Shown here: positions 43,295-54,967 of the stretch, piece by piece | How the letters are laid out: the number at the start of each line of letters is the position of its first letter | Numbering within the stretch: position 1 is the first letter of the stretch | Source: Tenacibaculum sp. 190524A02b | Lineage (GTDB): Bacteria > Bacteroidota > Bacteroidia > Flavobacteriales > Flavobacteriaceae | Assembly: GCF_964036645.1 (NCBI RefSeq) | Contig: NZ_OZ038525.1 | Coordinates: 3,104,001 to 3,168,000 of the forward strand | Direction: 5' to 3' | DNA length: 64,000 nucleotides | Made by a program: the position numbers and the translations under genes | The notes under the pieces: generated by a model | Seen by the model: the letters and a program-made list of their open reading frames with translations, nothing else | What the model was told of the DNA's origin: nothing | Database searches by the model: none

Positions 43295-43322
43295 ATAAAA
43301 GTCCCAAAATGGGGACTTTTAT
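43295..43322. terminator. Bidirectional terminator overlapping the slipin stop codon
   Basis: Arms 43295-43305 and 43312-43322 pair over 11 bp (ATAAAAGTCCC) with a 6-nt loop. The right arm contains the stop codon of the convergent slipin gene. Confidence 0.75.
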
Positions 43323-44419
43323 TTATTTACAGCAAAAATTTCTTTTAACTGTTTTACCATATTTCCATTACCAGACACCGTAATTTCTCCAATTTTATCG
43401 GCAATTTTCTCTACATATTCCATTTCTTTTAATTTAAACAACATTTCATTATTTTCCATCAACTTAGCAGTATTTAATAAACTTCTAGTTGAGGCTGTTT
43501 CTTCTCTTCTAGTAATTATATTGGCCTGTGCTCTTTTTTGAGCTACTAAAACTTGATTCATAATTTCTTTCATTTCACCAGTTAAAATAACATCTCTAAT
43601 TCCACAAGTAATTACTTTTACTCCTAACACAGTTGCTTTATCTTTTATTTCTTTTAAAACCTCTGTTGCAATATCTTCTTTCTTTTCTAGTAATTCATCC
43701 AAAGAATAGGTTCCTACATAAGCTCTTAAAATTAACTGCATAGCAATGTATAATTGCTTCTCATATTCTTTATTCTCTAACAAAGCCTTCTCTACATCAA
43801 TTACCTTATACTGTGTATAGAAGTTAATACGAATCGTTGCTTTGTCTTTGGTCAATAACTCTTGTCCAGAAATTTCTAATTGTAATCGTCTAGTATCAAC
43901 TTTTGCTATTTTAATTGAAGTATTATTTCTCCAGAATCTATACGTACCTCCCGTTAAGGTTTTAGTATGTACATCATCTACTAATAATACTGCTTTTTCA
44001 TAGGCTGTTACTTCAAACTCTTTAATATATTTGGCTACAGCATAGTTTTTAAATAGTGATTTATCAATAGTTTCTGTTATGTAAATTTTACTAATATCTA
44101 TTCTTTGAAACGTTCTATTAATTAATCCTTTCCAAAACACATACCTTCCAGCCTCAAGCACGCGCTTAAAGTTATCATTTTCATATACAAAAACTAACTC
44201 ATTATCCTTTACCTCAACCACATCTAACATATTTATTAATGTCTCATCTGTTAGTAAAATATCTAAAGCTACTGGTGCGTAAAAATCTTTAGTTATATCA
44301 AAAGGTAATACACTTTCATTCCATTTTAACCAGTGTACACCTTTAGTTATGGCTTTTAAATAGTCTCCATTTTTAAATACCAATCCAACTTTTCCTTGGT
44401 TAATTCTAACTCTTTTCAT
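43319..44419 (-). CDS. Slipin / SPFH (band 7) domain protein
   Basis: 366 aa. A central SPFH domain (about 95-290) has the typical LQLEISGQELLTKDKATIRINFYTQYKV-type strands and a following coiled-coil stretch (AQKRAQANIITRREETASTRSLLN). Unusually, it lacks the N-terminal membrane hairpin usual in slipins and begins with two beta-rich SPFH-like repeats. Forms membrane-associated rings in better-known members. It follows the end of the tRNA array in the same direction (about 305 bp), and slipin-type genes have been reported near RtcB RNA-repair loci in other bacteria. Confidence 0.85.
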   Translation of the reverse strand: MKRVRINQGKVGLVFKNGDYLKAITKGVHWLKWNESVLPFDITKDFYAPVALDILLTDETLINMLDVVEVKDNELVFVYENDNFKRVLEAGRYVFWKGLINRTFQRIDISKIYITETIDKSLFKNYAVAKYIKEFEVTAYEKAVLLVDDVHTKTLTGGTYRFWRNNTSIKIAKVDTRRLQLEISGQELLTKDKATIRINFYTQYKVIDVEKALLENKEYEKQLYIAMQLILRAYVGTYSLDELLEKKEDIATEVLKEIKDKATVLGVKVITCGIRDVILTGEMKEIMNQVLVAQKRAQANIITRREETASTRSLLNTAKLMENNEMLFKLKEMEYVEKIADKIGEITVSGNGNMVKQLKEIFAVNK

Positions 44420-44724: not shown

Positions 44725-44747
44725 AAAAAACTACGATGCTTACGTAG
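44725..44747 (-). terminator. Terminator at the end of the tRNA array
   Basis: On the minus strand CTACG (43-47 of 44700s) pairs with CGTAG, 7-nt loop, followed by TTTTTT. It comes 22 nt after the last tRNA-like unit. Confidence 0.65.
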
Positions 44748-44768
44748 AACCTGAATACTTCAAGTTTT

Positions 44769-44880
44769 GATTATCCCATGTTATGCGCATGGTGCTCTAA
44801 CCAACTGAGCTACAAAGCCTATTTTTGGTGGCTTTGACAGGAATCAAACCTGTGCTAAAAAACAGACATTTAAAGTGCCT
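44769..44880 (-). tRNA. Candidate circularly permuted tRNA unit 3 (CAU-anticodon-like)
   Basis: In transcription order the 3' part comes first: T arm at 44837-44853 (stem ACAGG/CCTGT), acceptor strand CAAAGCC (44830-44836), discriminator A and an encoded CCA. After a 6-nt linker (44820-44825) comes the complementary acceptor strand GGCTTTG (44813-44819), U8-A9, a perfect D stem GCTC/GAGC and an anticodon arm CCATG/CATGG. The anticodon loop CGCATAA has CAU but G instead of the universal U33. About 27 nt before the T arm form an extra hairpin (AGGCA/TGTCT). The junction would lie in the variable region. The most irregular of the three units. Confidence 0.45.
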
Positions 44881-44960
44881 GAATTCACTAGAACCGAAAT
44901 CTAGCGCGTCTACCATTTCCGCCATACCTTAAAAGGCAGTAGGACTCGAACCTACACGAA
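44881..44960 (-). tRNA. Candidate circularly permuted class II (Leu-type body) tRNA unit 2
   Basis: 80 nt. The 3' part comes first: TTCGT, T arm 44939-44955 (GTAGG-TTCGAGT-CCTAC), acceptor strand TGCCTT (44933-44938). Two nt later follows the complementary strand AAGGTA (44925-44930), then U8-G9, a Leu-type D arm and an anticodon arm CTAGA/TCTAG. TGAATTC completes a variable arm of about 12 nt when joined to TTCGT. The loop TTTCGGT gives anticodon UCG, an Arg-type anticodon on a Leu-type body. Every element of a class II tRNA is present, but in permuted order with the junction in the variable arm. Confidence 0.5.
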
Positions 44961-45034
44961 TTAAAAACCTATTACTATACCAGACTTAGCTACATAACTT
45001 TCGTTATGGAAGGATTCGAACCTTCGTACATAGA
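44961..45034 (-). tRNA. Candidate circularly permuted tRNA-Lys (UUU)
   Basis: 74 nt with every element in canonical size but permuted order: anticodon-stem 3' strand TCTAT (45030-45034), 4-nt variable loop, T arm GAAGG-TTCGAAT-CCTTC and acceptor strand CATAAC (45003-45008). A GAAA tetraloop (44999-45002) follows, then the complementary strand GTTATG (44993-44998), U8-A9, D stem GCTA/TAGT with a GG-containing loop, and anticodon-stem strand ATAGG (44968-44972). The loop TTTTTAA has U33, UUU, A37 and A38. Read in normal order the same DNA has neither a paired acceptor nor a good anticodon stem. The junction would lie right after the anticodon loop. Confidence 0.6.
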
Positions 45035-45184
45035 TGTGGATATTTTTGGAAAACATCCTAACCTTCAAGTCAAGTTGCACATACAAATCAAATACAAAAC
45101 TGCATGAATGTATACAATGGTGCTATACAGAAACACACAACAAGACTTGCTTGATATTATTTATAACTTATTATTTTTTACTTG

Positions 45185-45212
45185 CCTCATCATAGTTTTT
45201 AGTATGATGAGG
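45185..45212. ncRNA. Perfect 10-bp hairpin in the spacer before the permuted tRNAs
   Basis: 45185-45194 (CCTCATCATA) pairs with 45203-45212, 8-nt loop. On the minus strand no T run follows, so it is not a simple terminator. It follows the conserved box at 45222-45266 and may be part of a structured leader. Confidence 0.4.
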
Positions 45213-45221
45213 AATTATCTT

Positions 45222-45266
45222 TTTCTTTGCAATTCTCCCACGTTTACGACGTTCTTTTTCAATTAC
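45222..45266 (-). repeat. 45-nt conserved box, copy 1 (tRNA array)
   Basis: On the minus strand this reads TGTAATT, A-rich, GAACGTCGTAAA, then a GGGAGAATTGC core. It recurs with small indels at 50591-50639 inside the rtcB operon. Indels change reading frame, so it is an RNA or DNA element rather than a peptide. Confidence 0.55.
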
Positions 45267-45270
45267 AATG

Positions 45271-45278
45271 CAAATATT
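45271..45278 (-). promoter_or_regulatory. Possible internal promoter box before the permuted tRNAs
   Basis: Minus strand AATATTTG followed by CATTG resembles the -7 region of the two array promoters (CATATTTGCACCG and CATCTTTGCATCG). It suggests that the permuted units may be transcribed on their own. Confidence 0.35.
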
Positions 45279-45338
45279 ACTTCATTTTACGCAGTCTTTT
45301 TGCGTACTTTAAAATATTTTTATTTTTTTTAGAATTTG

Positions 45339-45411
45339 CAGGAATAATAAGACTTGAACTCATATTTTTGGAATCGTACTCCAATGTTTTATCCAATTAA
45401 ACTATATTCCT
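45339..45411 (-). tRNA. tRNA-Arg (anticodon ACG)
   Basis: 73 nt. Acceptor AGGAATA/TATTCCT perfect 7 bp, U8-A9, D stem GTTT/AAAC, anticodon stem TTGGA/TCCAA with loop GTACGAT (ACG anticodon, G32 and U38 unusual), 4-nt variable loop, T loop TTCAAGT, discriminator G and CA. It starts 10 nt after the YkuK-like stop codon, in the same direction. Confidence 0.8.
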
Positions 45412-45420
45412 TTTTCTTTT

Positions 45421-45921
45421 TTACACCACTCTATCTGCACAAGAGGAGCTTGCAAAGGCAAAAGGCTTGGCTTTAAATTCAAAGCCCATACCTAAAATAT
45501 AACCCATTGCCTCTTTTAAAGCTACATTTGATTGAAACTTAGCATCTGTATTAATATCAGCATGCACTTCTAATTCAACATTATATTTATTTAACAAATC
45601 ACAGATTGCATAAGCTACTTCTACAGACATAGCAACCTCTTTGAGCATTCTTTCTTTTATGCCTATTTTTTTAGCTTCTTTATAACTTCTTATAAACATA
45701 AAACCACCTTTTCCTTCTCTTAATACTACAACCGCTGTAGCATAAGCTGTATGAGATTTATATCCTTGTGAATCTGAACCTACACAAATTTTTAAACGGT
45801 ATCCTGCTTCTTGCTCTTTTACAATTGCATTCTCTACGATTTCTGTAATGGGCTTTTCAAATAACTTCCCTTTAAAATTTCTCCATTTTTGTTGTACTAC
45901 TTCCATTATTTTTCTTTTCAA
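45421..45921 (-). CDS. YkuK-like RNase H-fold protein (DUF458)
   Basis: 166 aa, normal family length. Family hallmarks: KICVGSDSQGYKSHTAYATAV at the first Asp of an RNase H-like fold, then HADINTDAKFQSN, and a C-terminal stretch ending FASSSCADRVV with conserved Ser, Asp. An RNase H-type nuclease is plausible but has not been shown for this family to my knowledge. The gene sits inside the tRNA array, 47 nt after the tRNA-His and 10 nt before the tRNA-Arg, so its mRNA and the tRNAs come from one transcript. A role in tRNA processing or turnover is an inference from this position. The start could be either of two Met codons at the N-terminus (MKRKIM). Confidence 0.88.
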   Translation of the reverse strand: MKRKIMEVVQQKWRNFKGKLFEKPITEIVENAIVKEQEAGYRLKICVGSDSQGYKSHTAYATAVVVLREGKGGFMFIRSYKEAKKIGIKERMLKEVAMSVEVAYAICDLLNKYNVELEVHADINTDAKFQSNVALKEAMGYILGMGFEFKAKPFAFASSSCADRVV

Positions 45922-45968
45922 ATTACACTTTTATTCACATAACTAACAGGAATTTAACTTCCTTTTTG

Positions 45969-46040
45969 GGTGACTTCGGGAATCGAACCCTATTCTTCTC
46001 ATCCACAGTGAGGCGTTTTACCAAATAAACTAAAGCCACC
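45969..46040 (-). tRNA. tRNA-His (anticodon GUG)
   Basis: 72 nt counting the extra G-1, which pairs with C73, the hallmark of tRNA-His. Acceptor GTGGCTT/AAGTCAC, anticodon loop CTGTGGA, T loop TTCGATT. One mismatch at the base of the anticodon stem and one in the T stem. Confidence 0.8.
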
Positions 46041-46045
46041 ATTTG

Positions 46046-46117
46046 TAAACCTGATAGGATTTGAACCTATACAATAAGAATCAAAATCTTATATGCTAAC
46101 CATTACATCACAGGTTT
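46046..46117 (-). tRNA. tRNA-Gln (anticodon UUG)
   Basis: 72 nt. Acceptor AAACCTG/CAGGTTT, anticodon arm TAAGA-TTTTGAT-TCTTA, T arm ATAGG-TTCAAAT-CCTAT. Discriminator A; CCA not encoded. Only 5 nt before the tRNA-His. Confidence 0.82.
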
Positions 46118-46123
46118 CATTTG

Positions 46124-46197
46124 TACAGGAAGAGAGATTCGAACTCTCAAAATTCTGATTCTAAACCAGATGCGTATACCTGTTCCGCCATTCCTGT
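46124..46197 (-). tRNA. tRNA-Leu (anticodon UAG) lacking the long variable arm
   Basis: 74 nt. Acceptor ACAGGAA/TTCCTGT perfect; Leu-type D arm (TGGCGGAAC...TACGC); anticodon loop TTTAGAA (UAG, A37 instead of the usual G37); T arm GAGAG-TTCGAAT-CTCTC. The variable loop is only 5 nt (ATTTT), while Leu tRNAs normally have a class II arm of 12 or more. Either an abnormal Leu tRNA or a decoy. Confidence 0.7.
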
Positions 46198-46301
46198 ATT
46201 TTTAAGTTTGCAGTTTCCCAGTAATCAGCTTACAGTAGTGTACTGCTCACTGAAAACTGATGAACTGCTTGCCATTAATACACACTCCTTTCTAGGTATT
46301 G
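46198..46301. repeat. Spacer with dispersed CAGT-type repeat
   Basis: The 104-nt gap between Pro and Leu tRNAs contains repeated CAGT/ACTG words (TACAGTAGTGTACTG and CAGTTTTCAGTG on the minus strand) of the kind dispersed in many Bacteroidetes genomes. No tRNA fold. Confidence 0.4.
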
Positions 46302-46374
46302 TCTGGGAAGCAGGACTCGAACCTACAACCTCCTGCATCCAAAGCAGGTAAACAACCAATCGTTATCTTCCCAG
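46302..46374 (-). tRNA. tRNA-Pro (anticodon UGG)
   Basis: 73 nt. Acceptor CTGGGAA/TTCCCAG perfect, anticodon stem CCTGC/GCAGG, loop TTTGGAT with A37 where tRNA-Pro normally has G37 (the TrmD methylation site), T arm GTAGG-TTCGAGT-CCTGC. The D stem is weak (TAAC/GTTT). Discriminator A. Confidence 0.78.
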
Positions 46375-46378
46375 TTTG

Positions 46379-46438
46379 CAGTACTGACGGGATTCCCTTC
46401 GTCTTCGCTCAGGATAAACTTCTCTCCACGTCAATACT
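46379..46438 (-). pseudogene. tRNA-Asp-like remnant interrupted by a dispersed repeat
   Basis: The 3' 19 nt (GAATCCCGTCAGTACTGCA) are identical to the tRNA-Asp immediately upstream, and the 5' AGTATTG can pair with CAGTACT. The interior, however, is replaced by a CTTCGTCTTCGCTCAGG-type repeat (about 46395-46417) that is dispersed in this phylum. A broken duplicate. Confidence 0.6.
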
Positions 46439-46442
46439 TTTG

Positions 46443-46515
46443 CAGTACTGACGGGATTCGAACCCGCAACTTTCCGAGAGACAGTCGGACGCGCTAACCG
46501 TTACGCTACAGTACT
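46443..46515 (-). tRNA. tRNA-Asp (anticodon GUC)
   Basis: 73 nt. Acceptor AGTACTG/CAGTACT, anticodon stem TCCGA/TCGGA, loop CTGTCTC (GUC with C38, but U37 is abnormal), T arm GCGGG-TTCGAAT-CCCGT, discriminator G as expected for Asp. Confidence 0.8.
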
Positions 46516-46519
46516 TTAG

Positions 46520-46602
46520 TGGAAGTGGTAGAACTTGAACCTACAAGCTCCGAAGAGAACAGAGTTACAGTCTGCCGAGCCAACCATTTGCTCAACACTT
46601 CC
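46520..46602 (-). tRNA. tRNA-Tyr (anticodon GUA)
   Basis: 83 nt class II tRNA. Acceptor GGAAGTG/CACTTCC perfect, D stem GAGC/GCTC, anticodon loop CTGTAAC (C38 unusual), long variable arm around CTTCGG, T loop TTCAAGT, discriminator A. Confidence 0.85.
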
Positions 46603-46623
46603 TTTGTTATATTTTAATACTAG

Positions 46624-46695
46624 AGACAAGAATGAGAATCGAACTCATAAAAAACGGAGTTGCAGTCCGCTGCCTTACCATTCTGCCACCTTGTC
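46624..46695 (-). tRNA. tRNA-Cys (anticodon GCA)
   Basis: 72 nt. Acceptor GACAAGG/TCTTGTC, anticodon loop CTGCAAC (C38 unusual), T arm ATGAG-TTCGATT-CTCAT, discriminator U as required for Cys. First tRNA of the array, starting 9 nt after the leader terminator's T run. Confidence 0.85.
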
Positions 46696-46703
46696 TTTGT
46701 CAC

Positions 46704-46737
46704 ATAAAAAAAGCATCTCCTTGTTGAGGAGATGCTT
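46704..46737 (-). terminator. Attenuator-like terminator between leader A and the tRNA array
   Basis: 10-bp stem 46728-46737/46711-46720 with a 7-nt loop, followed on the minus strand by seven T. Leader A contains GGGAGAT (46784-46790), which can pair with ATCTCCT of the 5' arm and would then prevent the hairpin. Confidence 0.75.
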
Positions 46738-46761
46738 CTAGTTTTTACTATGAATCAATAA

Positions 46762-46890
46762 TTAACTTATAGCTTCATAGTTTATCTCCCTTTTAAAAAT
46801 GATTGGATCTTTACTACATATCAGTAGATCATATTTCGGCGAACGAAATTCTATATGATGTGCTCTATTATGTTGTAAATACTGTTTCAT
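46762..46890 (-). CDS. Leader peptide A of the tRNA array (42 aa)
   Basis: ATG at 46890, TAA at 46762; core FRSPKYDLLIC. It lies between the P1 promoter and the terminator at 46704. Of 42 codons, 16 belong to the tRNAs of the array below: Cys TGT x1, Tyr TAT x3, Asp GAT x2, Pro CCG/CCA, Leu CTA/CTG, Gln CAG/CAA, His CAT x3, Arg CGT x1. All eight families occur. Thr, Gly and Val are absent. A segment within codons 34-36 copies part of the terminator 3' arm. The likely role is to make a stalled ribosome report shortage of these tRNAs. A peptide function cannot be excluded. Confidence 0.62.
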   Translation of the reverse strand: MKQYLQHNRAHHIEFRSPKYDLLICSKDPIIFKREINYEAIS

Positions 46891-46948
46891 TTTATTATTT
46901 ATTTAAAATACTTTTATTATTTAATGTCGTTTATTTCATTTGTTTTGA

Positions 46949-47018
46949 CGGTGCAAATATGAAAGGTATTTTTTAATCTCACAAGAAAAAAATAAATTTA
47001 TTTTATTGATTTTCAGTT
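46949..47018 (-). promoter_or_regulatory. P1 promoter block of the tRNA array
   Basis: Minus-strand -33 TTG (46982-46984), a 20-nt spacer and -7 CATATTTG (46954-46961). The 70-bp block is identical to P2 of the rtcB operon (54611-54680) at 57 positions without gaps, including a T7 run and the spacer AATACCTT. Conservation outside -33/-7 suggests a shared regulator or recent duplication. Confidence 0.75.
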
Positions 47019-47049
47019 AATTAAATAGAAAACAGACAATAGAATCCCT

Positions 47050-47067
47050 ATCCGTTATTTAACGGAT
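47050..47067. promoter_or_regulatory. Palindrome upstream of P1
   Basis: ATCCGTTATTTAACGGAT, 8 bp either side of a 2-nt centre. Possible operator; no counterpart seen near P2. Confidence 0.35.
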
Positions 47068-47168
47068 TTTAAACACTTATACAAAAGTCTGTCTCTCAAT
47101 TGCTTTCTGTTTTTATCTTTTTATTTTGTTAATTTCTTAGTCTAACATTTTTCATGAAAATTTTTCAT

Positions 47169-47199
47169 AAAAAAAGCGTCCAATTAAAATTGGACGCTT
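47169..47199 (-). terminator. Terminator after leader B
   Basis: Arms 47189-47199 and 47174-47184, stem AAGCGTCCAAT/ATTGGACGCTT, followed on the minus strand by seven T. The same stem core (AAGCGTCCAA) ends the leader D unit at 54798-54837. Confidence 0.8.
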
Positions 47200-47229
47200 G
47201 TATTTATAGTTGTTTTTAATGTTTTTTAT

Positions 47230-47343
47230 CTAAATCATATTCAAATATTGATATACATAGCCTCCTTTTCGCCAAATTGTTGGTCGAAAATCATACGAAC
47301 AAAGTTCTAATTGCTTACTTCTATGTATATTTTGTGTACTCAT
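47230..47343 (-). CDS. Leader peptide B (37 aa)
   Basis: ATG at 47343, TAG at 47230. The core LCSYDFRP is encoded CTT TGT TCG TAT GAT TTT CGA CCA. Fourteen of 37 codons belong to the array tRNAs, and all eight families occur (Cys 1, Tyr 4, Asp 1, Pro 1, Leu-CTN 1, Gln 3, His 1, Arg-CGN 2). It is followed by a terminator. AATTTGGCG at 47270-47278 resembles the terminator 3' arm with a one-nt bulge. A weak promoter box (TATTATTG, 47360-47367) precedes it. It looks like an independent upstream copy of leader A. Confidence 0.55.
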   Translation of the reverse strand: MSTQNIHRSKQLELCSYDFRPTIWRKGGYVYQYLNMI

Positions 47344-47606
47344 TTGTTTATTAATACTGCAATAATACAGCTTTTATTACACAATACACTAGTTTTAAAC
47401 CATTTCTATTTTTTAATTCCTTTTAAAAAATTTAAATTCACTCATTTCCTTACACCCCTTGTAAACGCTACTAAAACGCAATAAAATAATTAACACAAAG
47501 ATTAAATTATATATTATTTTTTACAATTTTAATTAAATTATTCGCAACAATACATTCTTTTTCATTAATTTAGTTGCTGAATAATTAACAACCAAACATT
47601 CAAAAA

Positions 47607-50138
47607 ATGAAAAAAACCCTTCAAAAAGTGGTGGCTTTAGCCACCCTATTCGCCTGTGCATTTCACTTAAATGCACAATCTATCTTAAAGGTTGGAGAAG
47701 AATTTGACGTAAATGTTGACTTAACTCAAAAAAAGTATCAGACATTAGTTCAACAGAAGCTCCAAGGAAAATCTACCAAAGATGGAACAAAAGCTCTAGT
47801 GTATGAAAAAGAATTCTTCTCTAAAAATGCTTCATACATCAAATTGTATTTTGAAAATTTTGATCTTGCTCCAGGAGATTACGTAGAAATTTCAGGCGCT
47901 AAAAGTAAAGAATCCATTCTTTATGGTGGAAAAGGAAAAATTATTGACCAAGAACTTAATATGATTAGTGATTTCTGGTCTAGAGTTATGCTAGATGATA
48001 AAGTAGTTGTAAAACTATACTCTTCTGGTAAAATAGGATCTCATAAAGGTTTTGAGATTAAAAAAGTAGCTTACGGATTTAGTGAAGAAAAAATCCAAAA
48101 ACAATTGATGGCTGATCAACAACAACGTTCAATTTGTTCTGCTGATAACAAGGAAGCAATTGTTTGTTACAATGGAACTGAGATGTTTGAAAAAGCAAAA
48201 GCTGTATGTAGATTACTAATTGGTGGTAGCTCTTTATGTACCGGATGGTTATTAGGAAGCGAAGGTAACTTAATGACTAACAATCATTGCATTGGCTCTG
48301 CTTCTGCTGCACAAAATACTGATTACATGTTTAACTATCAACATTCAAATTGTGCAGGTACTAGTAATGCTACTACAGACGTAGTTGCTTCTTCTGCTAC
48401 TTTTATTAAAACTAACTCAAGTTTAGATTACACGTTGGTTAAATTACCTGTAAACCCAACAAATACCTATGGATATTTAAGTTTAAGTTCTGCTATTCCA
48501 GCTGCTGGAGATAGAATTTATATTCCACAACATCCAGGAGGAAGAAGAAAAGAGATTTCTGTAAAAACGGACACAGATGCTACTGCTGGTGGTTTCTCTA
48601 GAGTATATCAAAGTTCATCAGGCTCTGGACAACAAGTTAGATATTATGCAGATACTGAAGGAGGAAGTTCAGGTTCTCCTGTTTTAGATTACAATTCTAA
48701 TTTGGTAATTGCTATTCATAACACAGGTGGATGCCCTAATGGATCGTATGGTAGATGTGATAATTTAATTAATGCTATTGGCTCTGATATGCCTGCAAAT
48801 GGTGTTGATGGTACTGGTGGTGGTGACCCTGATCCAACTGGGTGTAGTTCTACCGTAAGTTCTTTTCCTTACAATGAAAGTTTTGAGTCTAATGATGGTT
48901 GGACACAAGCTACTGGTGATGATGGAAATTGGGTTAGAGATGCTTCTGGAACTCCATCTTCAAACACAGGACCAAGCTCTGGGGCTAATGGTTCTTACTA
49001 TATGTTCTTAGAAGCTTCTACAAACGGAAGTACTGGACAAATTGGTGCTAATGCTACCGCTATTTTAGAGAGTCCATGTTTCAACTTATCAGGTCAGTCT
49101 CAAGCTACTTTTAAGTTCCAAAATCATATGTATGGAACAAGTGTTGGTTCCTTAAAATTAGAAGCTTCTACTAATGAGGGTTCTTCTTGGACTTCTTTAT
49201 GGTCTTTATCTGGAAATCAAGGGAATCAATGGAATGCTGTTTCTGTAAATTTAGCTTCGTATTTAGGACAAGCTAAATTAAAGTTACGTTTTGTTGGTAC
49301 TACTGGATCAAGTTGGTCTAGTGATATTGCTATTGATGCTATTTCTTTAAGTACTGATGGTGGTGGTGATCCTGATCCAGGGTGTAGCACTTTAAACTTT
49401 AATGATTATACTATTACTTCTTTCTCTAATCAAGATTCTGCTGGAGATTATTCAGTAGGTAGTGGTGGTGCCTCTCTAAATTTAACTAACAATACTTGGA
49501 AATATATTTCATACAATTACACTGTAACTGCTAATACTGTTATTGAATTCCAGTTTAGTAGTACTTCAGAGGGAGAAATTCATGGAGTAGGTTTTGAAAA
49601 TGATAATTCATTAACTTCATCTAGATATTTCAAAGTACATGGTACTCAAAACTATGGTGTTACTAACTTTGACAATTATGCTGGTGGTACCAAAACATAT
49701 GTAATTCCAGTTGGAGATTCTTATACAGGTACTATGGATAGATTAGTATTTATAAATGATAATGATGCTGGTTCTGGAAATAATTCTACCTTCTCTAATG
49801 TAAAAATTTACGAAGGTTCTTGTACGCAATCTACTTTCGAGGTTGCTTCTTTTGGTACTAGAATTGACAGAATTGGTAATGAAGATGAAGGTTTATTCTC
49901 TTCACTTCAGTTAGCTCCAAACCCTATACAAAAAGGGAACTACTTAAAATTAGTTGGTCCTAGTAAGGATATTTCAGGAGCTAAATATTCAGTAATTAAT
50001 ATTCTTGGTCAAGTATTAGACAACGGTACTTTAAACAACAGTAAAGCTATCAATGTAAGCAAATTGAACACAGGAATTTATATTCTGAAATTAGAAAATG
50101 AGTTTACTAAAACAACCAAACGTTTTATTATAGAATAA
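47607..50138 (+). CDS. Secreted trypsin-fold (lysyl-endopeptidase-like) serine protease, T9SS substrate
   Basis: 843 aa. Signal peptide (ending LNAQ) and propeptide. The trypsin-like domain has His in TNNHC near residue 226, Asp in SSLDYTLV near 272 and Ser in GGSSGSPV near 353, with a cysteine pattern like lysyl endopeptidases. A MAM-like module (about 420-590), a second beta-rich module (about 600-740) and a T9SS type A sorting domain follow. Extracellular protease. Probably unrelated to the RNA-repair genes that surround it. Confidence 0.9.
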   Translation: MKKTLQKVVALATLFACAFHLNAQSILKVGEEFDVNVDLTQKKYQTLVQQKLQGKSTKDGTKALVYEKEFFSKNASYIKLYFENFDLAPGDYVEISGAKSKESILYGGKGKIIDQELNMISDFWSRVMLDDKVVVKLYSSGKIGSHKGFEIKKVAYGFSEEKIQKQLMADQQQRSICSADNKEAIVCYNGTEMFEKAKAVCRLLIGGSSLCTGWLLGSEGNLMTNNHCIGSASAAQNTDYMFNYQHSNCAGTSNATTDVVASSATFIKTNSSLDYTLVKLPVNPTNTYGYLSLSSAIPAAGDRIYIPQHPGGRRKEISVKTDTDATAGGFSRVYQSSSGSGQQVRYYADTEGGSSGSPVLDYNSNLVIAIHNTGGCPNGSYGRCDNLINAIGSDMPANGVDGTGGGDPDPTGCSSTVSSFPYNESFESNDGWTQATGDDGNWVRDASGTPSSNTGPSSGANGSYYMFLEASTNGSTGQIGANATAILESPCFNLSGQSQATFKFQNHMYGTSVGSLKLEASTNEGSSWTSLWSLSGNQGNQWNAVSVNLASYLGQAKLKLRFVGTTGSSWSSDIAIDAISLSTDGGGDPDPGCSTLNFNDYTITSFSNQDSAGDYSVGSGGASLNLTNNTWKYISYNYTVTANTVIEFQFSSTSEGEIHGVGFENDNSLTSSRYFKVHGTQNYGVTNFDNYAGGTKTYVIPVGDSYTGTMDRLVFINDNDAGSGNNSTFSNVKIYEGSCTQSTFEVASFGTRIDRIGNEDEGLFSSLQLAPNPIQKGNYLKLVGPSKDISGAKYSVINILGQVLDNGTLNNSKAINVSKLNTGIYILKLENEFTKTTKRFIIE

Positions 50139-50159
50139 AGCCCTATTTGAATTAAAAGA

Positions 50160-50191
50160 AAAAGCTCTCTTAACATATCAAGAGAGCTTTT
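50160..50191. terminator. Bidirectional terminator between the protease and the rtcB operon
   Basis: Arms 50160-50171 and 50180-50191 pair over 12 bp (AAAAGCTCTCTT), 8-nt loop, A- and T-rich flanks on both sides. Marks the 3' end of the rtcB operon. Confidence 0.82.
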
Positions 50192-50216
50192 GAATTTTGG
50201 ATACTGCATTAAGTAA

Positions 50217-50531
50217 TTACCTTTTACTCTCATAAACTTTATCTCTTCGGTCAATTTCAGCCAAAGGACTTCCTTTAAAAGTGTCGATATTTACAAATCC
50301 ATTTTCTTTGGTAATCATAGAATCGACCTCTTTTACAGCTCCTCTTCTTACATTACCGTAATCGCCTGTAAGCTTTTTAGTAGCAGGGTCTAAATCTCCC
50401 CATAACTTATCGGGTTTACCATTATCTATGGGTTCTACATAATACGTTATGCCTGTAACTTTTGATTTTACTACAAATCTTCCCGTGTGGTCTGTTCCTT
50501 GTAAAAATCTTTGTAATACTTCTTGTCTCAT
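50217..50531 (-). CDS. Small hypothetical protein at the end of the rtcB operon
   Basis: 104 aa, basic, no signal or membrane segment. Central region GRFVVKSKVTGITYYVEPID suggests a small beta-sheet domain; the tail is charged. No family recognised. It is preceded by the conserved 45-nt box (50591-50639) and followed by the operon terminator. Confidence 0.65.
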   Translation of the reverse strand: MRQEVLQRFLQGTDHTGRFVVKSKVTGITYYVEPIDNGKPDKLWGDLDPATKKLTGDYGNVRRGAVKEVDSMITKENGFVNIDTFKGSPLAEIDRRDKVYESKR

Positions 50532-50590
50532 CTTCTTCTATTTTTATTTAATAATTTATTCTTTTTCTTTTAAAATATTTTTCTTACTTA

Positions 50591-50639
50591 TTTCTTAGCA
50601 ATTCTCCCCTTTTTTACGACGTTTCTTTTCTTAATTACA
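50591..50639 (-). repeat. 45-nt conserved box, copy 2 (rtcB operon)
   Basis: Same element as 45222-45266: TGTAATT, A-rich, GAAACGTCGTAAA, then GGGGAGAATTGC on the minus strand. It lies in the 131-nt gap upstream of the 104-aa gene. Confidence 0.55.
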
Positions 50640-50662
50640 CAGCTCTTTTACTTCTAAGCGTG

Positions 50663-51181
50663 TTATTTTTTCTTCTTCTTTTTACAATTGTTTTTCTTTT
50701 TCTTAGGAACCTTCCTTTTTATACGATCTTTTGCACTATCTATAGTATACAAGTAGTCATTGTTATATGTATGTAGCTTTGCTTGTTTTAATGCTTCCAA
50801 GGCTTTTTTATACTTTTTCAACTGCTCATATAAATGTGCTTTGCCTACATAAAGAACTGCTTTATCTACTCCTTTTACAGTTAATGCAAATGCTATTAGT
50901 TTTTTAGCTTCTTCTATATCCTCATTCCATAACAGTACGTTGATATAGTGTGGATACACTTCAAAAGCATGCATATTTTCTGCTAAAGCTTCTGCATAAT
51001 AGCCTTTAGCTTTTTCAAAATCTTTTAATACCTCAGCATGTATTCTTCCTAATAAAGTTAGTGCTGTTGTGTTTTTTTCATCATAAGACAATGCATAGTT
51101 TAAAGCTTCTACTGCTTCTTCCAAATCATACGGATATGCATCTAATGCCTTGAATATATAATTGTTTACTAATGTTGCCAT
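50663..51181 (-). CDS. TPR-repeat protein with Lys-rich tail
   Basis: 172 aa. Three to four tetratricopeptide-type helical pairs (for example ALTLLGRIHAEVLKDFEKAKGYYAEAL) take up residues about 15-145. The C-terminal about 20 residues are almost all Lys, suggesting RNA or ribosome binding. The start is 1 nt after the prfH stop, so translation is coupled and a role with PrfH is likely. Confidence 0.8.
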   Translation of the reverse strand: MATLVNNYIFKALDAYPYDLEEAVEALNYALSYDEKNTTALTLLGRIHAEVLKDFEKAKGYYAEALAENMHAFEVYPHYINVLLWNEDIEEAKKLIAFALTVKGVDKAVLYVGKAHLYEQLKKYKKALEALKQAKLHTYNNDYLYTIDSAKDRIKRKVPKKKKNNCKKKKKK

Positions 51182-51182
51182 T

Positions 51183-51875
51183 TTATTCTAATTGTTTTCG
51201 CAAGTCGTTTTTTAATTGACTTCGTTTTGATTTATAGTTTTTCTTTTTCTTTTGAACTTTAAAATCGGTTCCTGTAAATATTTTTATAGGATTCCCTCTT
51301 TGTAAGTTCAAATGGTTTTCCCATTCTTGTTTAACACTGTTTTGTAACTGTATTATGTTATGATTTGCTACTTGTTCTTTCAATCGTTGTATCGCTATTT
51401 TTTTATTTTGATGCTGCGATCTACTTTCTGAAACCAATACCTGAATCCCTGTTGGAACATGTTTTGCTCTTATTGCTGAACTTACTTTATTTACATGTTG
51501 TCCTCCGGAACCTGAACTTCTAATTGCTTGAAATTCGATATCTTTTTCTTGTATGGTTTGTTCTTTTATAAGTGGCAATTCAAAACAACCAATAAACCAG
51601 TTACTACGTTTGTGGTATTTTCTGAATGCAGATTTACCAATCCACTGAATAGTACCTAACCATTCTTTTAAAAAAGGAGTTAATTCTTTTCCTTTTAGTT
51701 GTAATGTTACGGACTGTATCGTACCATTTTCTACTCCATTTTCTTTTTGAAGAATAGTGTAGGCAATGTTATTTTCTATTAGTTTTTCAATGAACGTTTT
51801 TAAAACCTTGGCTACAACCCAAGTGCATTCCGCAGGACCACGGCCTGCGGTTAATTGTATTATTTTTATTTCCAT
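51183..51875 (-). CDS. prfH: Peptide chain release factor-like protein PrfH
   Basis: 230 aa from ATG 51875; an upstream in-frame TTG is less likely. Contains the GGQ motif (GSGGQHVNKVSSAIRA near residue 125) that triggers peptidyl-tRNA hydrolysis, and the short N-terminal domain (LTAGRGPAECTWVVAKVL) in place of the codon-reading domain, as in RFH. PrfH with its RtcB partner has been reported to act on ribosomes cleaved at the decoding centre. It sits between the nucleotidyltransferase-like gene and the TPR gene. Confidence 0.92.
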   Translation of the reverse strand: MEIKIIQLTAGRGPAECTWVVAKVLKTFIEKLIENNIAYTILQKENGVENGTIQSVTLQLKGKELTPFLKEWLGTIQWIGKSAFRKYHKRSNWFIGCFELPLIKEQTIQEKDIEFQAIRSSGSGGQHVNKVSSAIRAKHVPTGIQVLVSESRSQHQNKKIAIQRLKEQVANHNIIQLQNSVKQEWENHLNLQRGNPIKIFTGTDFKVQKKKKNYKSKRSQLKNDLRKQLE

Positions 51876-52016
51876 TTTATGTTTAGCAGATATCAATTCA
51901 AATGATTTTAATCGAATGAGAATGAAACTTTATCAAACAATTCTATATCTTCTCGATACAAAATTTTTCTCCATTTCATTCTAAAAAATTTCACTCGAAG
52001 TGACAATATATTTCTG
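51876..52016. repeat. Dispersed repeat between prfH and the nucleotidyltransferase-like gene
   Basis: Contains TTCTCGATACAAAATTTTTC...ACTCGAAGTGACA, a palindromic element with relatives at 52719-52775 and in other gaps of this window. Confidence 0.5.
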
Positions 52017-52559
52017 CTAGGGCATTTTAGATAACAATGGATTTCCTACTGGATTTTCTCCTTTTCCTAAGAGTTGTAAGGCTCCTTTTACCGCCCAACA
52101 TTTATCACTAGAATGAATGTTTGAATAAAAGCTGAGTAATGTTTTTGGTTCTACAACGTTCCATCCATTTACTTGAACACTTTTTAGGTTTTTAGATTCA
52201 AAAAAATCAATAGTTACTCTTACTTCTTTTCCTGTGGGTAACCATGCTATTTTTTCATATCTCCTAAAGTTTTCATCACTTTGCAAACGGTCGTAACGTG
52301 TCCAAACTTTCTCAAATCCTTCTTCTAAAAGAATTTGCATTACAATCCCTACATTTTTAGGATTCACAAAGATGTCTATGTCTTTATGATCGTGTGCGTG
52401 TTTATATTCTTTATGATTCATTTCTGACATGAAATGCCATGCCCATCCTCCTGAAATGATAATCCATTGTTTTAATTTTTTTAATATTTCTAAACCTAAT
52501 TCTATTCGGTAATCAGGCCACAATTCTCCGTATCTTTTTGTATTATGATTTGTTCTCAT
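52017..52559 (-). CDS. Nucleotidyltransferase-fold protein in the rtcB operon
   Basis: 180 aa. SGGWAWHFM near residue 38 followed by HKDIDIFV about 20 residues later is the GG...DxD pattern of minimal nucleotidyltransferases. It has no HEPN partner next to it. It could add nucleotides to damaged RNA ends (a CCA-like or ligase-assisting job) or modify a protein; the operon favours an RNA role, which is inference. 275 nt separate it from rtcB, with a hairpin and a dispersed repeat between. Confidence 0.75.
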   Translation of the reverse strand: MRTNHNTKRYGELWPDYRIELGLEILKKLKQWIIISGGWAWHFMSEMNHKEYKHAHDHKDIDIFVNPKNVGIVMQILLEEGFEKVWTRYDRLQSDENFRRYEKIAWLPTGKEVRVTIDFFESKNLKSVQVNGWNVVEPKTLLSFYSNIHSSDKCWAVKGALQLLGKGENPVGNPLLSKMP

Positions 52560-52834
52560 AGTTTTTTATGTTTTTAGCTAATTAGCCTTTGGCTGTTTGC
52601 TTTTAGTTTTTGGTTTTACTTTTGTCTTTATGGGTAAAAGAAGTAATCAGTTAGTCAACTAGCAGATTACTTCTTCTCTGCGTTTCACTCATCATAATGA
52701 CGGTTATACTTTTTATATAGTTCTCGATACAATTTTTCTACGTTTTACTTCGAAAAATTACTCGAACAGACAGAAAATGGATTTAAGTTTTAAACTCATT
52801 GCTACATTATCCAACTTTCAAATTGTTACATTAA
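52560..52834. repeat. rtcB-NTase gap with hairpin and dispersed repeat
   Basis: 11-bp hairpin 52638-52648/52665-52675 (AAGAAGTAATC) with a 16-nt loop, and a TTCTCGATACAATTTTTCTACG...CGAAAAATTACTCGAAC palindromic repeat (about 52719-52775). No T run, so transcription may continue. Confidence 0.5.
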
Positions 52835-54226
52835 CTACCTATCCATTCTCACAATCTTAGGCGTAAAAGTGCCAACTACCTCTACTAATTCTTGTTGGTT
52901 TGCCATTACTTTTTTGATGTTTTTATACGCCATTGGGGCTTCATCAACACCACCTCCAATTAAGGTTACTTCATTCCTATTTAATTGATGCTTGATATCG
53001 CTTTTTGTAAACTTCTCTTTGCATTTTCTTCTTGAATGTTTTCGTCCTGCTCCGTGTGATGCCGATTGTAAGCTTTCTTGATTTCCCAAGCCTCGAACAA
53101 TATAACCTGGTGCTACCATAGATCCCGGAATAATTCCTAATTCGCCTTTACTAGCTGGTGTTGCTCCTTTTCTATGTACAATACGCTCTACACCGTTTAC
53201 TTGCTCTTTCCATGCAAAATTGTGATGGTTTTCAATCATTGTTAAAGGTTTTACGCCTAACAATTTTGCAATTCGTTGGTGAATGTTATCATGACAAGCT
53301 TTGGCATAATCACCTGCTAAATTCATAGCCATCCAATATTCTTGTCCATCATGCGTATTCATATCCAACCACGCTAAATGTTGTACATTTTTTGGTAGCG
53401 GACATTGTTTACTTGCTAAATAAGTATAATGTTTGGCTATGTTTGCGCCTAAACCTCTACTTCCACTATGTGATAACAAGCCTACATACTCACCTACTGG
53501 TACATTAAATTCATTGTTCTCATCTGTTATGTTTACAATTCCAAATTCTACAAAATGGTTTCCGCCTCCTGAACTTCCTAATTGATTGTATGCTTTGGTT
53601 TTTAAACGTTTTATCAAAGGAATCTCTTTAAATTCAGCACGCTCAAATATTTCATGATCTTGTTTTTTAGCGTGTGTTTCATACATTCCAAACTTGGTAT
53701 GTTCTGAAAGTATATTTACCATTTGGTGTTGCTTTCCTTTTATATAGGAAGCTTTCATTGGAAATATACTGAGTGCCATTCTACAGCCAATATCTAACCC
53801 AACTCCGTATGGAATTACTGCATTTTCTGTTGCTAAAACACCTCCAATGGGCAAACCGTATCCCGAGTGTGCGTCTGGCATTAATGCGCCTTGCACTGCT
53901 ATTGGTAACTTTAAGGCGTCGTAAAGCTGATACTTAGCTTGGTCATCAATTTCATTTTCTCCATAAATTGAAAACGGTGCTCTTGTATTTCTTAATTGAT
54001 GCATTTTAACTTCTACTGGTTTTATTAAACCTTCTGCAACTTTCCCCCATATCGCATTTCCTTCGTATTTTTTTGGATGAAGCAAAACGTCTTTGGTTTC
54101 TTCTAAAATGCGTTCTTTCTTTTCTTTTTTTCTATATCGGTTAATTTGCCCTAGAGCGATGTTTATACTATTGTTTTTTGGAAATCCTAAATTAATTAGG
54201 TCTTTTCCTTTTAGTTTTTTTCCCAT
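52835..54226 (-). CDS. rtcB: RtcB-family RNA ligase
   Basis: 463 aa, full length. Family motifs: GVGLDIGCRMALS with the Mn-binding Asp/Cys, HFVEFG, SHSGSRGLGANIAKHYT, HRKGATPA, and the guanylylation region ASHGAGRKHSRRK near the C-terminus (the His accepts GMP). RtcB joins 2',3'-cyclic phosphate or 3'-phosphate ends to 5'-OH ends, for example those left by anticodon nucleases. It is the first gene after the P2-leader C-terminator module. With prfH it matches the RtcB2-PrfH association known in other bacteria. No RtcA, RtcR or archease gene is visible here. Confidence 0.95.
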   Translation of the reverse strand: MGKKLKGKDLINLGFPKNNSINIALGQINRYRKKEKKERILEETKDVLLHPKKYEGNAIWGKVAEGLIKPVEVKMHQLRNTRAPFSIYGENEIDDQAKYQLYDALKLPIAVQGALMPDAHSGYGLPIGGVLATENAVIPYGVGLDIGCRMALSIFPMKASYIKGKQHQMVNILSEHTKFGMYETHAKKQDHEIFERAEFKEIPLIKRLKTKAYNQLGSSGGGNHFVEFGIVNITDENNEFNVPVGEYVGLLSHSGSRGLGANIAKHYTYLASKQCPLPKNVQHLAWLDMNTHDGQEYWMAMNLAGDYAKACHDNIHQRIAKLLGVKPLTMIENHHNFAWKEQVNGVERIVHRKGATPASKGELGIIPGSMVAPGYIVRGLGNQESLQSASHGAGRKHSRRKCKEKFTKSDIKHQLNRNEVTLIGGGVDEAPMAYKNIKKVMANQQELVEVVGTFTPKIVRMDR

Positions 54227-54234
54227 TTTTTTAG

Positions 54235-54320
54235 TTTTAGGCTGTATGCTTTTAGCTATAGGCTTATAGCCTAAAGCATAATGCTTAAAGCGTACAGCTT
54301 TGCTGTATAATTGTCTCGGA
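54235..54320. repeat. AGCTATAAGC-type dispersed palindromic repeat
   Basis: Overlapping words such as AGCTATAGGCTTATAGCCTAAAGC and GTACAGCTTTGCTGTA form nested hairpins between the rtcB start and the leader C terminator. Confidence 0.5.
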
Positions 54321-54350
54321 AATTGAAAACTAAACGGTAATGTATAGCAT

Positions 54351-54385
54351 AAAAAAATCCGAAACTTTAATTAGGCTTCGGACTT
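54351..54385 (-). terminator. Attenuator-like terminator between leader C and rtcB
   Basis: On the minus strand TCCGAAGC pairs with GTTTCGGA (8 bp with one G.U), 9-nt loop, followed by seven T. The 5' arm region AAGTCCGAAGC can instead pair with GCTTCGTGACTT inside leader C (11 bp, one bulged U). Confidence 0.75.
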
Positions 54386-54408
54386 TTCATATAATTAGAT
54401 AGTGTGTT

Positions 54409-54492
54409 CTATTTATAAATGAAGTCACGAAGCGGACATCTAAAAACTACTTGTTTTCCTGATGTGTAGATGTTTACTATTTTATCAAACAT
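54409..54492 (-). CDS. Leader peptide C of the rtcB operon (27 aa)
   Basis: ATG at 54492, TAG at 54409. The core CPLRD is encoded by five array codons in a row, TGT CCG CTT CGT GAC. Nine of 27 codons belong to array tRNAs, covering Cys, Tyr, Asp, Pro, Leu-CTN, Gln and Arg-CGN; only His is missing. The same stretch (54422-54433) is the one that can pair with the terminator 5' arm, so a ribosome positioned over it would block that pairing. Placed between P2 and the terminator before rtcB. Confidence 0.57.
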   Translation of the reverse strand: MFDKIVNIYTSGKQVVFRCPLRDFIYK

Positions 54493-54610
54493 ATTGTACT
54501 TCGTTTTTAATGGTATGTTTTAATTTCTTTTTTTCTTTTATATCAGCTAAACTCCCCTAGCTATTATAATAAAGTAATTAAAACGATACGTGTGTTTTGT
54601 TGCTTTATTG

Positions 54611-54680
54611 CGATGCAAAGATGTAAGGTATTTTTTAATTACGCAAGAAAAAAATGGGTTCATTTCACTGATTATCAGTT
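54611..54680 (-). promoter_or_regulatory. P2 promoter block of the rtcB operon
   Basis: -33 TTG (54644-54646), 20-nt spacer, -7 CATCTTTG (54616-54623). 57 of 70 positions equal P1 (46949-47018). Its upstream end holds the palindrome ACTGATAATCAGT, imperfect in P1. Confidence 0.75.
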
Positions 54681-54797
54681 CTTTGCTTTGTTTTCAAGAA
54701 ATAGAAATCCAGTCCGAATTTCTTCAGAGAAGTAACCTTTTGAGGTTTAGTTATGTAGTACTTTCCACTGATTTTGCAAAGACTTGCTTTTTTTCAT

Positions 54798-54837
54798 AAA
54801 AAAAAGCGTCCAAATTTTAGAAACTTGGACGCTTTTT
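54798..54837 (-). terminator. Terminator after leader D
   Basis: 13-bp stem 54825-54837/54801-54813 with 11-nt loop, eight T after it on the minus strand. Shares the AAGCGTCCAA core with the leader B terminator. Confidence 0.8.
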
Positions 54838-54858
54838 GTGATTTTATACTACAATAAC

Positions 54859-54921
54859 CTATTTATAACCGCATAAAAATCGCCTTTGGGCGTCCGATAT
54901 GTGTATAAATTGCTTTAGCAT
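54859..54921 (-). CDS. Leader peptide D (20 aa)
   Basis: ATG at 54921, TAG at 54859. Eight of 20 codons belong to array tRNAs: Leu CTA, Gln CAA x2, His CAC, Asp GAC, Arg CGA, Cys TGC, Tyr TAT; only Pro is missing. GGACGC (54890-54895), spanning the Asp codon, repeats the terminator 3' arm and can pair with GCGTCC of the 5' arm. Short, so identified by its architecture rather than by protein similarity. Confidence 0.5.
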   Translation of the reverse strand: MLKQFIHISDAQRRFLCGYK

Positions 54922-54959
54922 AGGTTATATTTTGTTTTTATATTAATAATTATTGACCG

Positions 54960-54967
54960 CAAATATG
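54960..54967 (-). promoter_or_regulatory. Promoter -7 box of the leader D unit
   Basis: Minus-strand CATATTTG, identical to the P1 -7 box, 39 nt before the leader D start. No clear TTG at -33. Confidence 0.4.

Follow-up and report, generated by a model that had tools for sequence, protein, structure and literature searches.

The window, a stretch of 64,000 nucleotides (G000:C1:3104001-3168000) within a single 5.04 Mb contig of Tenacibaculum sp. 190524A02b, carries two units on its minus strand. One is an array of tRNAs accompanied by a YkuK-like gene, the other an operon of rtcB, a nucleotidyltransferase (NTase)-like gene, prfH and a TPR-repeat gene. Upstream of both lie, in this order, a leader open reading frame (ORF), a terminator, a promoter, a second leader ORF and a second terminator; we call the first and second leaders of the array A1 and A2, and those of the rtcB operon R1 and R2. 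Judging from sequence, leader ORFs of this kind appear in marine flavobacteria to switch on spare tRNAs and RNA repair when ribosomes slow for want of tRNAs. The original prediction, made from the letters of the window, had named both the order and the genes, and we recovered them: all four pairs of leader and terminator are present, the two second promoters (P2) are identical at 26 of 31 bases, and the genes are recognized by ARAGORN (eight tRNAs: Cys, Tyr, Asp, Pro, Leu, Gln, His and Arg), PF04308, PF01139 and TIGR03072. The features of the two units are as follows.

47230..47343, minus strand: A1, first leader ORF of the tRNA unit, 37 codons; candidate antiterminator strand 47265-47259, with one internal mismatch
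47174..47199, minus strand: T1 of the tRNA unit, intrinsic terminator GCGTCCAA..TTGGACGC plus U tract
46954..46984, minus strand: P2 promoter of the tRNA unit, TTG-N20-CATATTTG
46762..46890, minus strand: A2, second leader ORF of the tRNA unit, 42 codons; candidate antiterminator strand 46790-46784
46709..46739, minus strand: T2 of the tRNA unit, terminator AGCATCTCC..GGAGATGCT plus U tract
45968..46695, minus strand: tRNA array Cys, Tyr, Asp, Pro, Leu, Gln, His (ARAGORN)
45421..45906, minus strand: YkuK-like RNase H-fold protein (Pfam RNaseH_like, PF04308)
45338..45411, minus strand: tRNA-Arg(ACG), last array tRNA in the ARAGORN output
54859..54921, minus strand: R1, first leader ORF of the rtcB unit, 20 codons; putative antiterminator strand 54896-54889
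54803..54835, minus strand: T1 of the rtcB unit, terminator GCGTCCAA..TTGGACGC
54616..54646, minus strand: P2 promoter of the rtcB unit
54409..54492, minus strand: R2, second leader ORF of the rtcB unit, 27 codons, ending ..LRDFIYK; the LRD codons form the putative antiterminator strand 54433-54422
about 54457-54443, minus strand: possible inner hairpin in R2
54358..54382, minus strand: T2 of the rtcB unit, terminator GTCCGAAG..TTTCGGA
52835..54226, minus strand: rtcB, RNA ligase (RtcB, PF01139)
52017..52559, minus strand: NTase-like protein (weak, sub-threshold NTP_transf_5 match)
51183..51875, minus strand: prfH, peptide chain release factor H (TIGR03072, 222.5 bits)
50663..51181, minus strand: TPR-repeat protein

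Consistent with the original prediction, the leaders persist as ORFs in relatives. The comparison drew on 80 named rtcB loci and on 19 loci with tRNA arrays that were reached via YkuK, 10 of the named loci serving as further arrays; R2 was detected in 78 of 81 rtcB loci, R1 in 49 of 81, and A1 and A2 in 28 of 30 arrays each. The three loci lacking R2 include L041 and L045, whose upstream stretch is only 200-211 bases long, and what was picked as A1 in L108 and L110 is the last part of a gene lying upstream, leaving 26 of 30 without them. Within narrow size and spacing ranges set for each class we found 74/81 R2, 46/81 R1, 26/30 A1 and 27/30 A2, whereas for 385 unrelated terminators of these loci the share is 2.3-5.5%; a conserved short ORF thus stands just upstream of an intrinsic terminator, as expected of an attenuator. 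Synonymous change is in excess in A1 (43/90 vs 0.243 expected) and to a smaller degree in R2 (80/229 vs 0.266), A2 (39/124 vs 0.240) and R1 (37/125 vs 0.245). The alignments used contain 53 of the 78 R2, 39 of the 49 R1, 22 of the 28 first array leaders and 23 of the 28 second ones. Rank correlations, promoter scores and codon-box tests rest on 24 arrays, after removal of L001, whose genome is that of L107, of L115, which lies at a contig end, of the leaderless L023 and of the near-duplicates L047, L111 and L072. L108 and L110 were excluded from A1 in the clade correlation, promoter, codon-box and 20-amino-acid tests, and kept in the detection, shuffle, arm-permutation, amino-acid-count, frame-correlation, synonymous-change and ribosome-position counts; seven array genomes overlap the named loci.

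Both P2 promoters of the window fit the pattern -33 TTG / -7 TAnnTTTG, which we take to be the flavobacterial promoter consensus, and over relatives the second promoters score at least 5/6 in 87% (R2) and 86% (A2) of cases, a score reached by 15-16% of shuffles. In this genome the exact T1 form AGCGTCCAA..TTGGACGCTTTTT is confined to the tRNA and rtcB units. We considered and rejected a T-box or other riboswitch, the only Rfam match of the window at gathering score being tRNA (RF00005); an Rfam RNA, such as rRNA, behind the extra T1 sites was likewise rejected, seven loci giving no gathering-score match.

Each leader ORF carries, near its 3' end, a strand resembling the 3' arm of the terminator that follows and able to pair with the 5' arm of that terminator; it looks like an antiterminator hidden in the leader ORF. 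In R2, the Leu-Arg-Asp codons read GCUUCGNGACUU and pair with AAGUC-CGAAGC; in Flavobacterium, where the terminator has changed to GCCCGAAG, the leader has changed to Leu-Arg-Gly (GGC) and the pairing is kept. No more than 5 of 100 shuffled leaders pair equally well in 46/49 R1, 68/78 R2, 12/28 A1 and 8/28 A2, and in all four classes the strand pairs better with its own arm than with the arms of other loci (0 of 1000 permutations reach the own value). The original prediction had looked to covarying terminator and antiterminator arms for support, and these are found: in the R2 alignment 93.8% of cells are paired, with 40 double-change cells and a covariation of 0.211 (at most 0.074 when slid), and in R1 93.0% are paired, with six double-change cells and a covariation of 0.160 (at most 0.072 when slid). 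The overlap of antiterminator and ORF is accordingly clear in R1 and R2, and holds for A1 and A2 as a class, more weakly when they are taken singly. Terminators and antiterminators are the most conserved parts. At one locus (L011:9120-9259) the R2 ORF crosses the antiterminator strand in another frame, with the RNA strand kept. The inner hairpin of R2 was considered as a possible polymerase pause site; 73% of cells pair, but a three-column slide equals that.

The codons ahead of this strand distinguish the two units. Array leaders hold more different amino acids than random protein segments (A1 18.5 vs 15.9; A2 18.0 vs 16.2), and all 20 amino acids occur within the first 27 residues of 5 of 26 first array leaders (from two clades, f5 and Winogradskyella-like) and of none of the 28 second ones, as compared to 9 of 200,000 random segments. 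In the window, A1 and A2 each contain all eight array families before the antiterminator strand, which only 26 (A1) and 161 (A2) of 20,000 length-matched random protein segments achieve; R2 contains three of the eight before its strand, and R1 seven of the eight over its full length. Codon boxes of the locus's own array are present before the strand at 98.3% (A1) and 93.3% (A2), against 57.9% and 61.1% in random coding segments. When arrays are permuted among loci the match falls to 93.9% and 88.5%, and 0 of 5000 permutations reach the own-array value, as do 1 and 2 of 5000 within clades, with the reservation that these permutations ignore phylogeny. Non-array boxes are near chance in A2 (70.4% vs 67.1% random). 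Three arrays outside these statistics hold 18/18, 16/18, 9/10, 9/10 and 9/11 boxes, one of them (L037) having the second leader only and another (L045) being a close relative of loci already used. The composition of A2 follows the families of the array in frame 0 (Spearman 0.76; -0.11 and -0.19 in the other frames); for A1 the correlation is 0.35 and not significant, and R1 and R2 show none.

Array codons are barely above chance in rtcB leaders (0.40 vs 0.30 and 0.52 vs 0.42), so these look like general translation sensors, and the rtcB unit probably answers to slow translation in general. Regulatory codons are thus tied to the controlled genes in the array leaders and hardly so in the rtcB leaders. 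The earlier proposal that both units sense eight tRNA families is supported for the array leaders, which hold the codons of their own array, and is not supported for the rtcB leaders.

Where a ribosome would have to stand in order to mask the strand was modelled by computing the pairing of 5' arm and ORF for each ribosome position, with a footprint of 15 nt 5' of the P site and 11 nt 3' of the A site. With no ribosome, predicted mean pairing is 0.95-1.00 in all classes. For R2 it is predicted to be near 1 with the A site at least 12 codons before the stop and to average 0.26-0.52 over the last ten codons; for A2, near 1 at least 13 codons before the stop and 0.34-0.58 over the last ten, except for 0.79 at the stop itself. 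The window's R2 gives about 1.0 at codons 2-17 and mostly less than 0.4 at codons 19-28, and its A2 0.97 at codons 2-30 and less than 0.5 at codons 31-41. A ribosome in the last ten or so codons of the proximal leader would, on this model, mask the strand, and one stalled earlier would not. In R1 and A1 pairing is predicted to weaken only with the A site about 4-15 codons before the stop. The position toggle thus matches R2 and most of A2 and is ambiguous for R1 and A1, where a ribosome close behind the polymerase would, we infer, occupy the masking stretch as the arm emerges; this is the weak point of the model.

The array tRNAs themselves are divergent: in the window they share 60-71% identity with the genome's own tRNAs of the same anticodon, and several anticodon loops are altered. 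Over 24 arrays and 255 tRNAs, the array copies carry U37 in 21/21 Asp (own A37), A37 in 23/23 Pro and 17/17 Gln (both own G37), A37 in 15/20 Leu-UAG and 7/9 Arg-ACG (own G37), U or G37 in 17/17 Glu (own A37), and A38 in 16/18 Tyr and 14/22 Cys (own C38). His is mixed (A37 in 7/19), and the loops of Lys, Ser-GCU, Trp, Gly-UCC and, in 8/9, Asn are unchanged. The letters of the own tRNAs agree in two other genomes among the best 30 matches of each, in both for Pro and Asp and in one each for Glu and Leu-UAG; Gln and Arg-ACG are absent among those best 30 matches. In tRNAs for Leu, Pro and Arg, G37 is the position modified to m1G37. The array tRNAs with altered loops are probably less sensitive to anticodon nucleases. 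According to the accessible part of a study of phage tRNAs, these are changed at nuclease sites (PMC10264068), and the arrays resemble such phage clusters in having loops changed at or near those sites; unlike the phage tRNAs described there, they are bacterial and lie beside RNA-repair genes with a candidate attenuator upstream. The content of the array varies between species.

The same leader design extends to a further repair gene. Tandem leaders with candidate antiterminator strands stand directly before an Rnl2-type RNA ligase gene in four genomes of two lineages (L252, L253, L254 and L255), and two other genomes carry Rnl2 on the array strand, downstream of the array and lacking its own leader within the sequence read. 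Rnl2 scored above cut-off in 6 of 147 genomes searched, all six of them array genomes; two more matches, below cut-off, lie outside array genomes. In five genomes (L244-L248), tandem leaders precede a small lipoprotein-like ORF and further ORFs, which in L244, the one locus of these compared to Pfam, are a TPR histidine kinase and a response-regulator receiver (just below cut-off). At the end of the window's array we also found two stretches that were absent from the original prediction. These, and the remaining features near the two units, are as follows.

44959..45048, minus strand: Y-RNA-like (YrlA) tRNA-mimic RNA (RF02553, E 5.6e-6, below gathering score)
44761..44876, minus strand: second Y-RNA-like RNA (RF02553, E 1.7e-5, below gathering score)
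43319..44419, minus strand: slipin (SPFH/Band 7) gene, a recurrent neighbour of array and rtcB operon
50217..50531, minus strand: 104-aa protein, no Pfam or NCBIfam match, recurring in some related loci

With 34-36 bits against a gathering score of 69 (Rfam RF02553), the two stretches are Y-RNA-like and not members of the family; elsewhere the scores reach at most 52 bits (L007) among the matches listed. Mere tRNA decay in 44760-45100 was considered and is doubted, the Y-RNA model scoring 34-36 bits and the tRNA model 22-28. Similar stretches below gathering score, among the matches listed, occur in L007 (12980-13092), L019 (13168-13268), L082, L085, L086, L087, L089, L091 and L092, either next to an array or flanked by slipin and the rtcB operon. 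TROVE (Ro60) was matched in 0 of 59 genomes searched.

The operon has the composition of an RtcB-PrfH repair operon, a PrfH equivalog (TIGR03072) adjoining RtcB (PF01139); a PrfH relative is present in 79 of the 80 fetched rtcB loci, and the window's RtcB shows up to 93% identity to those of Tenacibaculum loci. YkuK is matched in 24 of 194 genomes; a tRNA array adjoins all 20 strong matches, and the four weak ones have no array within the 3.4 kb fetched. D45, E90, E113 and D117 are invariant in 10 aligned YkuK-like sequences, and a comparison to solved structures gave marginal ribosomal S6 matches only (E 0.07-0.1). A gene of the RlaP RNA repair polymerase-beta family lies upstream of the rtcB leaders in L025 (7812-8864), and in L001, L033 and L004 genes are inserted between the proximal leader R2 and rtcB (115 and 229 aa without Pfam match, and 457 aa with a PcfJ-like domain). 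Between the units of the window, a plus-strand secreted trypsin-like/MAM protease with a Por sorting tail (47607-50138) is apparently unrelated.

We consider it likely that both units are under ribosome-mediated transcription attenuation, with the array leaders serving as a tRNA checklist and the rtcB leader as a general sensor of slow translation. The strand near the leader end would act as antiterminator by pairing with the 5' arm of the downstream terminator. A ribosome translating the leader in step with the polymerase would cover the strand as the arm emerges, and the terminator would form; with ribosomes stalled earlier or absent, the strand would be free and the polymerase would read through. 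In the tRNA unit, the codons before the strand would form the checklist of array families, so that losing any of the listed tRNAs should turn on the array, and the array would then supply divergent tRNA copies with altered anticodon loops. The shorter leader of the rtcB unit would sense slow translation generally and turn on RtcB-PrfH repair. The leader device as attenuator is well supported, and the array-unit leaders as multi-tRNA sensor are supported; that the stress signal is tRNA loss is probable. We also lean, with less assurance, towards a wider proposal, an audit of the tRNA pool in which near-pangram leader peptides would test the tRNAs that the array can replace, any loss would bring out nuclease-insensitive copies, and the same RNA device would extend to RtcB-PrfH, the Rnl2-type ligase and the Y-RNA-like RNAs, making up an RNA-damage regulon particular to this lineage, with ribosomes in place of a sensor protein.

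Several observations weigh against this interpretation. The loose criterion used for the initial choice of leaders (length 13-48 aa, gap 8-42) is satisfied by 137 of 385 control terminators and so proves little by itself; an array of seven tRNAs (L023:13029-14374) has neither leader nor terminator detectable upstream; and first promoters score weakly (R1 39% vs 17% for shuffles, A1 25% vs 8%). For A1 and A2 taken singly, pairing beats shuffles in under half of the loci, so that the single case is often weak, and the A1 strand of the window carries its internal mismatch. Two of five pair measures (one counting pairs with a double change, the other further types of pair) are not above shuffles in R1 and R2. 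The R1 and A1 strands lie mostly 6-11 codons before the stop and would be exposed again once the ribosome is at the stop, so that a simple two-state model fits these leaders poorly; the window's A2 strand would likewise be re-exposed (0.68 at the last codon, 0.97 at the stop). As for codons, rtcB leaders too are slightly richer in amino acids than random segments (R1 13.2 vs 12.4; R2 14.8 vs 14.1), and the A2 rank correlation drops to 0.55 without structure-bound codons, is weak in family f5 and lacks clade specificity, leaders fitting the arrays of other clades about equally. A1 is enriched for non-array boxes as well (78.6% vs 64.4% random), and part of its match is therefore general richness.

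This last point would also be expected if the leaders formed a general translation-stress attenuator, in which any slowing of ribosomes, by drugs, rRNA damage or starvation, sufficed and codon identity were unimportant, the rich composition being a by-product. The rtcB leaders, which hardly match the arrays yet share the device, and the prediction of antiterminator pairing even without a ribosome are in keeping with such an arrangement, as are, from the accessible parts of the reports, the release of the Anabaena trn array and rtcB by translation-targeting antibiotics (PMC10272220) and the response of E. coli toiL to at least five antibiotic classes (PMC12121999). However, array leaders that contain 93-98% of their array's codon boxes and fit their own array better than those of clade-mates speak against it, as does the near-chance frequency of non-array boxes in A2, and we regard it as unlikely.

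Control by structure alone, through an RNA-binding protein or other ligand acting on the terminators with the ORFs incidental, would suit the pronounced conservation of terminators and antiterminators and the locus L011, which keeps the RNA strand while its leader reads another frame. The constant size and spacing of the ORFs in 74/81 and 26-27/30 loci, against 2.3-5.5% of controls, together with frame-specific composition, synonymous excess and the lack, at gathering scores, of a T-box or other riboswitch from Rfam in the window, render it highly improbable. One could also envision the array as a relic of mobile DNA or a means of codon compensation, its control being unrelated to damage, as array content differs between species and the tRNAs diverge from those of the host. 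The arrays nevertheless recur next to rtcB-prfH, YkuK, Y-RNA-like genes and slipin, the YkuK query has no match in viral contigs, and Rnl2-type ligases above cut-off are confined to array genomes (6 of 6), so we think this origin very unlikely.

Attenuators of the trp/his type consist of a short leader ORF, a terminator and a competing antiterminator, with ribosome position as the signal. The leaders described here would share these elements with them and differ in that their putative sensor codons, which span as many as all 20 amino acids, mirror the tRNA genes of the unit, that tRNA genes and RNA repair would be controlled, and that two candidate attenuators stand in tandem; to our knowledge, attenuators known so far test one or a few amino acids. 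Mycobacterial whiB7 is said to have an upstream ORF (uORF) that senses multiple translation stresses. E. coli toiL-topAI likewise has a uORF sensing several kinds of translation stress, but in the part of the report available to us toiL is proposed to act on the ribosome-binding site and Rho, in contrast to the intrinsic terminator here, and the abstract contains no codon checklist (PMC12121999). In the open-licence literature, where most matches were available as listings, we found no description of leader-attenuated tRNA arrays or of an attenuated rtcB-prfH.

The Salmonella rsr-yrlBA-rtcBA operon is reportedly controlled by RtcR and includes the Ro60 protein, unlike the genomes searched here, which lack a TROVE match. 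Its RtcB goes together with Y RNAs and, by the title of the report, it is regulated by damaged tRNAs (PMC7790460). The E. coli RtcB2-PrfH operon has the same rtcB-prfH pair, and the accessible text contains none of the terms leader, attenuat and tRNA array (PMC9223846). In gene content the two units resemble the TrcR regulon of Anabaena, where, as far as the available portion of that paper goes, translational stress induces rtcB together with the otherwise silent trn array of tRNAs; a slipin gene, which neighbours array and rtcB here, is tabulated there among the changed genes. Control there is by a protein repressor, TrcR, rather than by RNA leaders (PMC10272220). Gene content and shared leader design here are consistent with array and rtcB forming a putative regulon of this type.

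If the proposal is true, an attenuator would test the whole set of replaceable tRNAs and reply by making the replacements, providing a bacterial alarm for anticodon nucleases and ribosome damage that requires no protein. It would also join tRNA arrays, RtcB-PrfH, Rnl2 and Y-RNA-like RNAs in one regulon, and predicts that the tRNAs listed in the leaders are those attacked in nature. The purpose of chromosomal tRNA arrays and of bacterial RNA repair would thereby become directly testable.

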